Shown: in pieces, positions 41,031 through 46,128 of the stretch
Position numbering within the stretch: the stretch's first letter is position 1
Layout of the letters: each line of letters opens with the position of its first letter
DNA from: Solibacteraceae bacterium
GTDB lineage: Bacteria; Acidobacteriota; Terriglobia; Bryobacterales; Bryobacteraceae
DNA: 64,000 bases
Direction: 5' to 3'
Assembly: GCA_026984795.1 (NCBI GenBank)
Contig: JALSRK010000051.1
Location: 62,001 to 126,000, forward strand
Translations under genes and position numbers: made by a program
The notes under the pieces: generated by a model
Seen by the model: the letters and a program-made list of their open reading frames with translations, nothing else
Databases searched by the model: none
Told to the model about the DNA's origin: nothing

Positions 41031-41720
41031 TCAGTCCTCGATGTGGAACCTACCCACGAAGGCGCTGCGCTCACCGGGCAAACTCCACCGCGTGCCCAGC
41101 CCCCTTCCCTGGAAGCTATGGGCGAGGGTGTAAGCCGGCATGGCATGATCGAGCGAGCTGAGCGGCCGGTACCAGACTTCCTCGTTGGTGCAGATGCGAT
41201 CGCCGTCGTTGAGAGCCCGGGTTTCGATCCGAGCCAGCTCTCCCGCCAGAAGCCTAGCCCGCGCGGCGTGTACAGTGTCTCCTTCGATCTCCAGACGCAC
41301 CGGAGCATACTCGACACGGACGACGTTGCTGAGCAGGTCACCCGCCATCCTCTGGGCGAAAGCCTTCAAGGCCAACCGTTGCTCTGCGTCGGCCCGCCTG
41401 TCGATGATCAATATGCTCCGCACCGGGTACGGGTTGCCTAGCACGTAACCCAGCGTGTCGCTGGCCAGAACGACGCCGGCTACGGCAAGCCCGTCGAGCT
41501 TCACCCCCTGCCACGAGCCCTTCTCGATCTTCCAACCGAGCACAGCGCGCTTGCCGACGATGCCCGCCTCACCGTTGGCGAAACACGGACCGGTGTAGAC
41601 GTCGGTGCTTCGGGCTTCTACGTAGGTTCCCTTGATGGACGTCGGCGCCAGTGAGCCGGCAAAGGCAGCCGGCGCCAGAATCGAAGACACGAATAGAGTA
41701 TAGGAAAGGAAAGGTCGCAT
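41031..41720 (-). CDS. DUF1326 domain protein, secreted
   Basis: A 229-residue protein with a signal peptide (about residues 1-21). 'GTYVEARSTDVYTGPCFANGEAGIVGKRAVLGWKIEKGSW' is the DUF1326 opening, though the first Cys of the usual EACSCDVYTGPCF is replaced by Arg, Ser and Thr, leaving a single Cys. The family has no known reaction. GAGGAGGTACTGGG gives a clear ribosome binding site. It lies downstream of the paoABC operon but is separated from it by a strong terminator. Confidence 0.82.
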   Translation of the reverse strand: MRPFLSYTLFVSSILAPAAFAGSLAPTSIKGTYVEARSTDVYTGPCFANGEAGIVGKRAVLGWKIEKGSWQGVKLDGLAVAGVVLASDTLGYVLGNPYPVRSILIIDRRADAEQRLALKAFAQRMAGDLLSNVVRVEYAPVRLEIEGDTVHAARARLLAGELARIETRALNDGDRICTNEEVWYRPLSSLDHAMPAYTLAHSFQGRGLGTRWSLPGERSAFVGRFHIED

Positions 41721-41764
41721 CCCAGTACCTCCTCTGAGTCCTTGCCTACGAGTATATCACCGAG

Positions 41765-41810
41765 AAAAAAGCCCCTCCGCCGGGACTCGTAACATTCCCG
41801 GGGGAAGGGC
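41765..41810 (-). terminator. Strong Rho-independent terminator of the aldehyde oxidoreductase operon
   Basis: On the minus strand GCCCTTCCCCCGGG pairs with CCCGGCGGAGGGGC (one mismatch, one G-T pair) around a 12-nt loop, followed by six T residues (A-run at 41765-41770 on the plus strand). It lies 31 bp beyond the stop of the small Cys-rich gene. Confidence 0.88.
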
Positions 41811-41840
41811 CTTTCCCCGATCCCGCCGTCTGGGTCCCTG

Positions 41841-42053
41841 CTACAGAGGCTTGTAACAGTTCCGCTCGGGATTGCACTCGTAATCGTCGGCGATCTTGCC
41901 GTCGGGACCCAAGCAATTCTGGGTCTTCTGGCACCAGAAGAGTCGGTCACCGGCCGAGAGGTTGGGATCGTGGTCGGTATCGACGAACATACCCTTCCAG
42001 CGCAGGAATTCGCAGCGGTCGTCGTCCAGGATGTTGAATCCGGCGTATTCCAT
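41841..42053 (-). CDS. Small cysteine-rich protein coupled to paoABC
   Basis: A 70-residue acidic protein with five Cys (residues 14, 41, 47, 60, 66), no signal peptide and no family I can name. The Cys spacing C-x5-C, C-x5-C and the aromatic, Asp-rich sequence suggest a compact metal- or cluster-binding fold. Support for a real gene: AGGAGGTGCGAT before the ATG, a ribosome binding site that overlaps the stop codon of the upstream FAD-subunit gene, and a strong terminator directly after its stop. It may be an assembly or electron-transfer partner of the oxidoreductase; that is inference from the operon. Confidence 0.75.
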   Translation of the reverse strand: MEYAGFNILDDDRCEFLRWKGMFVDTDHDPNLSAGDRLFWCQKTQNCLGPDGKIADDYECNPERNCYKPL

Positions 42054-42064
42054 ATCGCACCTCC

Positions 42065-43032
<968 letters not shown>

Positions 43033-43033
<1 letters not shown>

Positions 43034-45183
43034 TACGCTCTCCTCCTCTCCAGGGCCGCCAACACCCTGTCGGGTGTCAAAGGCACCCTCGGAACCCGTA
43101 CGCCAATCGCGTTGGCGACGGCGTTGGCAATGGCCGCGATGCCGGGGATCACCGGCGGTTCGCCGAGCCCGACGACGCCGCGGGCGTCATGTTCGGGCGT
43201 CATATCCAGATGGACTTCAATCTGTCCGACATCCTTGATGCCGGCGAGCTTGTAGAAATCGAACTCGGCATTCAGGAAGCGGCCTGTCGCGGCATCCAGG
43301 ATCCGCTCCTCATAGAGTGCACCGCAGATGGCCATGATCGCTGCGCCGTAGCACTGGCTTGCAGCTGTCTTCGGGTTGATGATCATGCCGCAGTCCTGGA
43401 CTACGGCGAGTTTCTTCAAGGTGACAATGCCCGTCTCGGTATCGACCTCCACCTCGGCCATCTGGGCCCCGCCGACGCCGCCGGCGATGAGTCCACCCGG
43501 GCTCCGCCGGTTGTTGGAGCCCGTGGCCTCGATCGGCGTCACGCCGAGCTTGGCGCAGGCGGCTCTCCAGGTGAGTGATTTCGACGAATCGCCTTTCACC
43601 ATGATCTTGCCGTCCCGGGCGACGAGCTGGTCCGGCTGCGCACCGAGGCTCGGGGCCACAGCTTCGAACAACTTCTCCAACGCGTTCAGAGTGGCCTTGC
43701 GCGTGGCGGCGGAGGTTCCGCCCACCGTTGTCGAACCGCCGGAAGCGCCAGCCCGGGGATAGCGGTTGTCGCCGATCCTCAACGTGATGTCCTTCATCGG
43801 CAGGCCCAGACTCTCTGCGGCCGTCTGAGTAATGATCGTTCGTGTGCCCGTGCCGAGATCCTGAGAACCGATTTCCAGAACGACGCTGCCGTCAGGGTGA
43901 ATCGTCACCCGCTCAGTAGCGTTGTGGCCCATGCCACCCCAAGTACCGATGCCGATACCGAGTCCAGTTTTCACCGGGCCACGTCCGGACTGGCCGCGGG
44001 GGTGCCACTTGCTCTTCCAACCGATCATCTCTGCGGCTTTGAGCAACTGCGCTCGGTAAACCTCGGGGCGCTGCGTATAGTGGAGGTTCTTCAAGAAGAC
44101 CTCCAGCGGATCCATCTTCAGCTTCGCCGCGAGGTCCTCGATGGCCGAGCAAGTTAAGAACGAAACCTGCGGGTGGTTGGGAGCCCGCCACGCGCGGGCG
44201 CCGCCGGCGTTGATCGAGACTGCGGAATGGTTGAACCGTCGGTTCGGCACATCCCGAAAGACATACGGCAGCAGGTTGGCGTTCAGGCCGCCGCCGCCGA
44301 AGCCGCCGGTGGCCCAGGTCTTCGACTCCCAAGCGATGATCGTACCGTCCTTCTTCGCCCCGACCTTGAACCGCCCATAAATGGCGGGCCGGCAGCCCGC
44401 GATCTCGAGTTCGGTCCTGCGGTCGTGGTGATAGCGGATCGGTTTGCCGCCGACCTTTTTCGACAGCTTCGCTGTTTCCACGCCCCATCGGTCCGAAGCG
44501 AACTTGCTGCCGAAACCGCCGCCAATATGGTCCTGATGTACGTGGACGTTGGCTGCGGGAATCTCGAGACCTTTGGCTAGGTCGCCGCCGACGCCGGAGA
44601 CGTTTTGCGTCGAAGGCCGGTACTCGACCTTCTCGCCGTCGAACGCAACCACCTGGCCGTGACTTTCCAAGCAACAGTGGGTGATCGGTGGAATTCCGTA
44701 TTCGCCTTCGCTGATGACGTCAGCGTCCTTGAATGCCTGGTCGGGATCGCCGGTGACCGCCTCGCCTGAGGGCTTGGCCCGACCGAGTTTTTGGGCGGTG
44801 GCCAGGTCGGCTTCCTTGACAAAGTGGTCGTTGAAGACTTCGTACTTGACCTTGATTTTGCGGACGCCATCGCGGGCGTGTTCCTCAGTGTCGGCCGCCA
44901 CCAAAGCGATTTCCGTGCCGGCCCACTGAATCTCGGTACCGGGTTCGGAGATGATCTGAATTCCCTTCACCCCGGGTGACTTCTCCGCCTGGCTCGTGTC
45001 GATATCAGTGACCTTGGCGTGGGCATAAGGAGAAGTCAGCAGGGCGGCGTACAGCATGCCGGGGAGCCTGACGTCCTGGCTGAACCTGGCCCTCCCGCTC
45101 GCTTTAGCGGGACCGTCTACGCGGTTCACCGGCTTGCCGATGATCCGGCGCTGATCCTTTGGTGGCCACTTGTAATCAGGCAT
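43033..45183 (-). CDS. paoC: Aldehyde oxidoreductase molybdopterin-binding subunit (PaoC/YagR-like)
   Basis: A 716-residue large subunit of the xanthine oxidase family. It binds a molybdenum cofactor and oxidises aldehydes. Recognisable are KPVNRVDGPAKASGRARF at the N-terminus, the GGGFGSKF loop contacting the cofactor, and a late GLGEPPVIPG whose Glu is the conserved active-site base. Length matches E. coli PaoC (732). It overlaps the small-subunit gene by 8 bp and the FAD-subunit gene by 1 bp. No XdhC-type cofactor-insertion gene is adjacent. Confidence 0.93.
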
Positions 45184-45817
45184 TTCTCCCTCCCATGGCC
45201 TTGGCCGCTTCCACGACGGCCTTGCGGATCCCTATGTAGGTGCCGCAGCGGCACAGATTTCCGCCGAGGCCGTTCATGACGTCTTCCTCAGTAGGATTCG
45301 GGTGCTCGTCGATGAAGGCCTTCGCCGCCACGACAAAGCCTGGCGTGCAGAAGCCGCACTGCTGGGCGTCGTTGTTGACGAAGGCTTTCATCACCGGATG
45401 CAGCTCCGAACCCCGGGTCATTCCTTCGATGGTCTGGATGTTCTTGCCTTGCGCGTCGATGGCCAGAGTGGTGCAGGCGTAGACCGCCTTGCCTTCCACC
45501 AGCACCGTGCAGGCGCCGCAGGTGCCGCGGTCACAAACGCGCTTGGCGCCTGTCAAGCCCAACCGGTCGCGCAAGGCATCGAGCAGAGTCACCCGCGGCT
45601 CGACCCGGAGCTCGTGCTCCTTGCCGTTAACCCACAAGGTGATCGAAACCTCCCCGGGACCGACCACGCCGCTCTGAGCCGCCTCCGCCGGGCGCTCCAA
45701 AACGGCTGCCCCGAGAGCCCCTCCGCCCAGGCTCACGCCTTGTAGAAAACCGCGGCGCGAGACACCGGATTCGGGCAGCTTGCGAACTTGAGACTCCTTA
45801 GGTGACCTCACTTGCAC
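45176..45817 (-). CDS. paoA: Aldehyde oxidoreductase 2Fe-2S subunit with Tat signal (PaoA/YagT-like)
   Basis: A 213-residue small subunit. GTG 45817 follows GGAAAGGAC; the frame is open upstream to 46066 but is not protein-like. A Tat signal (SRRGFLQGVSLGGGALG, about residues 20-36) implies that the folded heterotrimer is exported to the periplasm, as for E. coli PaoABC. Two 2Fe-2S sites: CDRGTCGACTVL with its later Cys, and CGFCTPGF ... LCRCGTY. First gene of the operon, with a well-formed promoter upstream. Confidence 0.93.
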   Translation of the reverse strand: MQVRSPKESQVRKLPESGVSRRGFLQGVSLGGGALGAAVLERPAEAAQSGVVGPGEVSITLWVNGKEHELRVEPRVTLLDALRDRLGLTGAKRVCDRGTCGACTVLVEGKAVYACTTLAIDAQGKNIQTIEGMTRGSELHPVMKAFVNNDAQQCGFCTPGFVVAAKAFIDEHPNPTEEDVMNGLGGNLCRCGTYIGIRKAVVEAAKAMGGRNA

Positions 45818-45982
45818 ACCGTCCTTTCCCTCTCTCGCGATCCTGGTACGGCCTTGTGCGTACTCCACGGCCCCGGGCAGTGTTCGAGCCGTAGCCGCAT
45901 ACCAAGGACCCCCCGAGAGGATTACACGTTCCAATCGCTGCAAACCATCGTTTCTCGTCGCACGGCGATGGTTACGCGATTG

Positions 45983-46011
45983 ACTATACCAAAAGGCGGG
46001 GGCAGCCACAA
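45983..46011 (-). promoter_or_regulatory. Sigma-70-type promoter of paoABC
   Basis: On the minus strand TTGTGG (46006-46011) and TATAGT (45983-45988) are spaced by exactly 17 bp. Transcription would begin near 45976, giving a leader of about 160 nt before the paoA GTG. The rest of the 45818-46128 spacer shows no gene. Confidence 0.6.
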
Positions 46012-46128
46012 GGTATCGACAACTGCGTCCCCCGTGCCGGAGGGCTCGGGCCGGCCGCCCCGCCAAAGGTTCGGTCGGCGTAAGCGCCGGCCGTGGACGC
46101 CGCTGGGTGCGTTCGCTACACTGCCACC

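Follow-up and report, generated by a model that had tools for sequence, protein, structure and literature searches.

A small protein with four conserved cysteines encoded directly behind paoB in Acidobacteriota, a candidate fourth subunit of a PaoABC-like molybdenum enzyme

The window considered here, i.e., the whole 64,000-nucleotide stretch of contig JALSRK010000051.1 from a Solibacteraceae bacterium, carries on its minus strand the genes for the three subunits of a molybdenum enzyme, followed by a small gene (here called C5), a hairpin and the gene of a DUF1326 protein. In the order in which they are read, the features are as follows.

45176..46066, minus strand: paoA-like subunit with two [2Fe-2S] clusters, given as the longest open reading frame; the real start is probably further in
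45746..45760, minus strand: SRRGF twin-arginine motif of PaoA (TIGR01409, 24.5 bits; cut-off 16.7)
43033..45183, minus strand: paoC-like molybdenum cofactor subunit, from a domain search (Ald_Xan_dh_C, MoCoBD_1, MoCoBD_2)
42065..43033, minus strand: paoB-like FAD subunit, from a domain search (FAD_binding_5, CO_deh_flav_C)
42542..42703, minus strand: inserted loop of PaoB, residues 111-164, with the first cysteine of the site (C120) kept and three others gone
42060..42066, minus strand: Shine-Dalgarno sequence GAGGAGG of C5, overlapping the paoB stop codon TGA (42065-42067)
41841..42053, minus strand (start at 42053): C5 gene, 70 amino acids, stop codon included in the coordinates; called from the open reading frame, homologues, invariant cysteines and codon-position bias
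41759..41821 (about), minus strand: terminator-like hairpin, T-rich in its tail, lying behind C5 and ahead of the DUF1326 gene
41031..41720, minus strand: DUF1326 protein with a signal-peptide-like N-terminus, downstream of the C5 terminator

The domain make-up of PaoA, PaoB and PaoC places the enzyme in the xanthine oxidase family; PaoC keeps the GGGFG and GLGE motifs, and all eight cluster cysteines of PaoA are readable in its sequence. It resembles E. coli PaoABC (YagTSR, PDB 5g5g) in having three subunits with matching domains and a Tat motif confined to the iron-sulfur subunit, and 5g5g_B is matched by the window PaoB both by sequence and by fold. It differs in its gene order (A-C-B), in the fourth small gene behind, in the lack of a PaoD gene in the operon, in the loss of three loop cysteines from PaoB, and in a PaoC that scores 347 bits against the NCBIfam PaoC equivalog, for which the cut-off is 1180. 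Because PaoC falls under this cut-off, the enzyme is named PaoABC-like and not PaoABC, with a predicted activity as an aldehyde oxidoreductase.

The original prediction for this locus, made from the letters of the sequence, had described C5 as a 70-residue protein with five cysteines and no known family, translated from a ribosome binding site overlapping the paoB stop codon and followed by a strong terminator, and all of this was borne out. The open reading frame places the cysteines at positions 14, 41, 47, 60 and 66, and the hairpin behind it folds at -43.3 kcal/mol (z -2.1), with 6 of 200 shuffled sequences folding equally well. In 210 pairs of C5 homologues with protein identity above 75%, the share of differing sites is 13.1% at codon position 1, 8.6% at position 2 and 40.9% at position 3, a bias which marks C5 as a coding gene under selection. 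The window protein gave no match in Pfam, NCBIfam or PHROGs, and 25 homologues scanned singly gave matches at chance level only (best E 0.027 in Pfam and 0.068 in NCBIfam), including one homologue that matched Fer4_2 at E 0.13. C5 is a genuine gene, and its product, which has no export signal of its own, belongs to an unnamed protein family without an entry in the libraries searched.

A search of 61 related genomes found C5 matches in 49 at E ≤ 1, of which 43 reached E ≤ 1e-10. With paoB counted at ≥50% identity and C5 at E ≤ 1e-10, the gene is present in 43 of the 46 paoB-positive genomes and in 0 of the 15 others, two of which (G008 and G030) have a diverged C5 adjoining a paoB of 42-43% identity. 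One of the three exceptions, G055, has a contig that stops less than 80 nt behind paoB. Genomes G010 and G019 (loci L140 and L141) encode a PaoB devoid of the loop pattern described below and have no C5, either at the locus or genome-wide at E ≤ 1, so C5 is not strictly required there; at L141, a hairpin and the DUF1326 gene come directly after paoB, from which it seems that C5 was deleted from the operon. As anticipated in the original prediction, C5 homologues lie beside operons of the xanthine dehydrogenase family, with paoB immediately upstream on the same strand in all of the first 30 loci, and in 91 of 110 loci the C5 start (as picked by script) is at -23 to +23 nt relative to the stop of paoB. 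The most constant same-strand families around C5 at 80 loci are paoA, paoC and paoB, and none other equals them. In G185 there are two pao operons (L168 and L169); both have a C5 of their own and a PaoB whose loop is intact. A second paoB in G033 and in G114 has an intact loop and stands without C5.

Across Acidobacteriota, C5 was found in 78 of 396 genomes at E ≤ 0.01 (76 at E ≤ 1e-6). A pattern scan of contigs from 84,980 species, which was the only cover of chromosomes outside Acidobacteriota and which a distant C5 in another phylum may escape, gave 98 relatives; the best 80 of these 98 were retained, and they are labelled as Acidobacteria lineages with the exception of one "Acidimicrobiia" MAG (L040). 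No C5 was found on plasmids at E ≤ 1, though 479 plasmid records carry PaoB-like FAD subunits, and none in viral contigs. C5 is, in sum, a widely conserved product tied to one subclade of Tat-exported molybdenum enzymes, and it very probably works with this enzyme. The original prediction had given it a role with the molybdenum enzyme, by way of cluster delivery, electron transfer or maturation; the linkage, together with four conserved cysteines, upholds the association, and with it part of the prediction.

The inserted loop of the window PaoB reads RCWYFRSGYGLLAMKDGKSLVANGENRYHAIFGRAPAYFV and retains one cysteine, so that the four-cysteine [4Fe-4S] loop is absent (the two central cysteines and the last are missing). 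Among solved structures, the window PaoB is closest in sequence or fold to the Methylobacillus sp. KY4400 aldehyde oxidase (5y6q) and 4-hydroxybenzoyl-CoA reductase (1rm6); the aligned loops of their FAD subunits, 5y6q_B and 1rm6_B, carry several cysteines, whereas the window PaoB keeps one of four. In such relatives the loop cysteines hold a [4Fe-4S] cluster, as they do in E. coli PaoB and, as ligands, in 1rm6. An additional [4Fe-4S] cluster in 1rm6 is named in the title of a paper. Neither the 5y6q nor the 1rm6 enzyme is known to have a C5-like chain.

PaoB sequences were classed by a three-cysteine loop pattern (n = 233, with L142 and L232 of the initial 235 dropped, as their contigs end less than 300 nt behind). 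The loop is present without C5 in 58 and with C5 in 31, 142 loop-less PaoB have C5, and 2 sequences have neither; these locus counts hold repeats of single genomes (e.g., L002/L040, L021/L156 and L013/L159), and a safer, non-redundant set of PaoB below 72% identity (n = 133, 81 with C5) gives 50, 24, 57 and 2 for the same four classes. C5 thus stands beside 142 of 144 loop-less PaoB (57 of 59 in the non-redundant set), and the loop is kept in 58 of the 60 PaoB without C5. The two central loop cysteines separate the groups by construction of the classes (89/89 vs 0/144), and the last loop cysteine, which lies outside the class definition, is found in 62 of 89 sequences with the loop vs 0 of 144 without it.

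When the PaoB tree is built from an alignment stripped of its loop columns, loss of the loop amounts to one change and C5 to five. The 59 loop-less rows, including the two genomes without C5, are all nested in one group (SH-aLRT 94, not starred) in which 76 of 78 rows have C5, and five further C5 rows with intact loops are weakly placed outside this main C5 clade. The loss of the loop cysteines occurred only inside the C5-bearing clade. Read most simply from these sequences, C5 would have come first and the loop cysteines would have been lost later, once; from a single event the cause cannot be proved, and an independent-pairs test of C5 against loop loss found 2 pairs only and hence has no power. 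The 31 loci at which C5 accompanies an intact loop imply that C5 did not originate as a replacement for the cluster, and the strict version of replacement, in which C5 exists for that purpose, is weakened by these loci and by the two loop-less genomes that lack it.

Within C5, the residues Cys41, Cys60, Cys66, Trp40, Gly49-Pro50-Asp51 and Arg64 are invariant in 177 loci; Cys14 is present in 176, the lone exception having a late start picked by script, and Cys47 in 120. In the non-redundant set (PaoB identity below 72%), cysteines 14, 41, 60 and 66 are found in 80, 81, 81 and 81 of 81 sequences. The five-cysteine pattern, which the original prediction expected to be conserved, is therefore conserved at four positions and not at Cys47, a clade feature, and "five-cysteine" is a misleading label for the family. 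Cys47 occurs in 116 of 142 C5 beside loop-less PaoB vs 0 of 31 beside intact loops (45/57 vs 0/24 in the non-redundant set), which makes the fifth cysteine a mark of the loop-less group, and Trp19 has a similar distribution (133/142 vs 0/31; non-redundant, 50/57 vs 0/24). Residue 67 is a cysteine in 15 of the 31 C5 beside intact loops vs 0 of 142 in the loop-less group, and the C-terminal end of the former (L152, L164, L168 and relatives) often reads RGCC or similar.

The claim that the enzyme is exported by the Tat system is supported by the twin-arginine signal of PaoA. Among loci whose contig covers the N-terminal region of PaoA, the RRx-hydrophobic motif precedes the ferredoxin domain at 76 of 76 with C5 and at 12 of 15 without. 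According to PMC4273604, PaoB and PaoC of E. coli lack signals of their own and leave in the company of PaoA. Since PaoA alone bears a twin-arginine motif here and the E. coli subunits ride on PaoA, co-export of C5 is plausible, and C5 could, by this analogy, be a further hitchhiker passenger of Tat export. Downstream, a DUF1326 gene lies within 800 nt 3′ of C5 on the same strand at 78 of the 163 C5 loci with room for it and at 2 of 56 paoB loci without C5, one of these being L141, from a genome that has lost C5; its product may work with this enzyme as a partner in the periplasm. No literature on DUF1326 was found. In 91 homologues of this protein, Cys46 is present in 91 and Cys177 in 87. The window also encodes, about 9 kb from C5 (31762-33060, minus strand), a protein resembling multihaem c-type cytochromes (Paired_CXXCH_1, Cytochrom_c3_2).

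An XdhC gene of the PaoD type lies on another contig of the genome that holds the window, and a search of 37 genomes found one in 36; G003, which has C5, gave no XdhC match. In G008 (the L153 region, G008:C1:5797091), unlike in the window, paoB is preceded by an XdhC gene at a distance of about 4 kb. The presence of such a gene at a separate site makes C5 a less than obvious substitute for PaoD, and delivery of the molybdenum cofactor or maturation by C5 is less needed. C5 was also considered as an XdhC/PaoD maturation factor in its own right, and neither C5 nor the homologues scanned contain the XdhC_CoxI domain of Pfam.

Structure prediction was of limited use for C5 itself. AlphaFold2 gave no usable model for C5 alone (81-row alignment; pLDDT 45.8, pTM 0.23). 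With L032 PaoB and C5 read through in frame as one chain (94 rows), most of the PaoB core scored above 90, against 54-73 for the remodelled loop and 49-71 for the C5 blocks; these predicted C5 scores are slightly above those of C5 alone and too low for placement. Foldseek on this model returned 5y6q_B, 5g5g_B and 1rm6_B, with flavoprotein subunits only among the matches listed. A C5 profile run against the PDB gave two matches to EnvC (E 1.4 and 1.5, over 23 residues), which were put down to chance. C5 shares its size and number of cysteines with small carriers such as ferredoxins, HiPIP and rubredoxin, but it has no match in either Pfam or NCBIfam, lacks a CxxC pair and has its cysteines spaced differently; the spacing of the four conserved cysteines (x26, x18, x5) matches no cluster motif known to us. 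For a relationship to the gamma subunit of quinohemoprotein amine dehydrogenase, neither C5 nor the homologues scanned gave a Pfam match. The literature searches, which took in passages of PMC3958847, PMC4273604, PMC7759655 and PMC10609526, found no text on a fourth small subunit of PaoABC-type enzymes.

These observations suggest a proposal which, taken whole, we consider evenly balanced between right and wrong: C5 would be a dedicated fourth subunit of the Acidobacteriota PaoABC-type enzyme, with a four-cysteine core, placed at the electron exit of PaoB and exported with the complex. C5 would be translated by coupling straight after PaoB and would fold onto it, beside the former [4Fe-4S] loop and near the FAD, and the complex including C5 would then be carried out by the PaoA signal. 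The four invariant cysteines would form the core of C5, more probably as a site for a metal or an iron-sulfur cluster, filled ahead of export, than as two disulfides, and C5 would serve as the electron exit to a periplasmic acceptor. In one clade, which includes the window, PaoB would have shed its cluster ligands as C5 gained Trp19 and usually the fifth cysteine. That C5 is a subunit of the mature enzyme seems slightly more probable than the contrary; a metal site in C5 together with a part in electron transfer is possible but somewhat unlikely. The most specific version, in which C5 is a new, small subunit with a cysteine-ligated metal (probably iron-sulfur), co-exported by Tat, which took over in trans the electron exit from the former cluster of PaoB, is quite unlikely as it stands.

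Instead of leaving the cytoplasm with the enzyme, C5 might act as a cytoplasmic assembly factor that binds PaoB or its loop before export, aids insertion of FAD or clusters or Tat proofreading, and remains inside. Its lack of an export signal and its translation right behind PaoB would suit such a factor, as would its occurrence with and without the PaoB cluster and its dispensability in two genomes, and in E. coli paoABCD likewise ends in a chaperone gene, PaoD (PMC3958847). On the other hand, C5 is unlike XdhC/PaoD, with no Pfam match and an XdhC gene present in its own genome and nearly all others searched; its persistence after the loss of the loop cysteines would be odd for a factor that inserts the PaoB cluster, and four strictly invariant cysteines with the WC and GPD motifs fit a built-in site better. 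This explanation is fairly unlikely. Slightly less likely still is a structural cap, exported and held by two periplasmic disulfides, which would shield the FAD face with neither metal nor electron transfer. The small size and richness in cysteine, the probable periplasmic destination and the invariant aromatic, proline, glycine and aspartate residues agree with a cap, and the small subunits of periplasmic quinoprotein dehydrogenases offer a parallel; however, Tat carries folded proteins, the disulfides would need to be made in the cytoplasm, and members with five cysteines leave one unpaired.

The link to the PaoB cluster can be doubted separately from the nature of C5. It is quite possible, if short of an even chance, that the two are unrelated, C5 being a trait of the clade, and the cluster having disappeared a single time through drift or in favour of another acceptor. 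The single change on the PaoB tree agrees with this, as do the C5 genes beside intact loops and the two cluster-less PaoB without C5. Against it, Trp19 and Cys47 are confined to the loop-less group, though this group is likewise one clade.

The electron acceptor of PaoABC-type enzymes has not been identified, according to PMC3958847, and C5, which has invariant cysteines and is linked both with a single subclade and with what became of the PaoB cluster, offers a concrete handle on the electron exit. It would add another passenger to the hitchhiker export of the Tat system, and it represents a family new to the libraries searched, from a phylum of abundant and poorly cultured soil bacteria. If the proposal is true, a prosthetic group would have moved between subunits, and the intermediates, i.e., C5 with the cluster and C5 without it, would persist in living Acidobacteriota.
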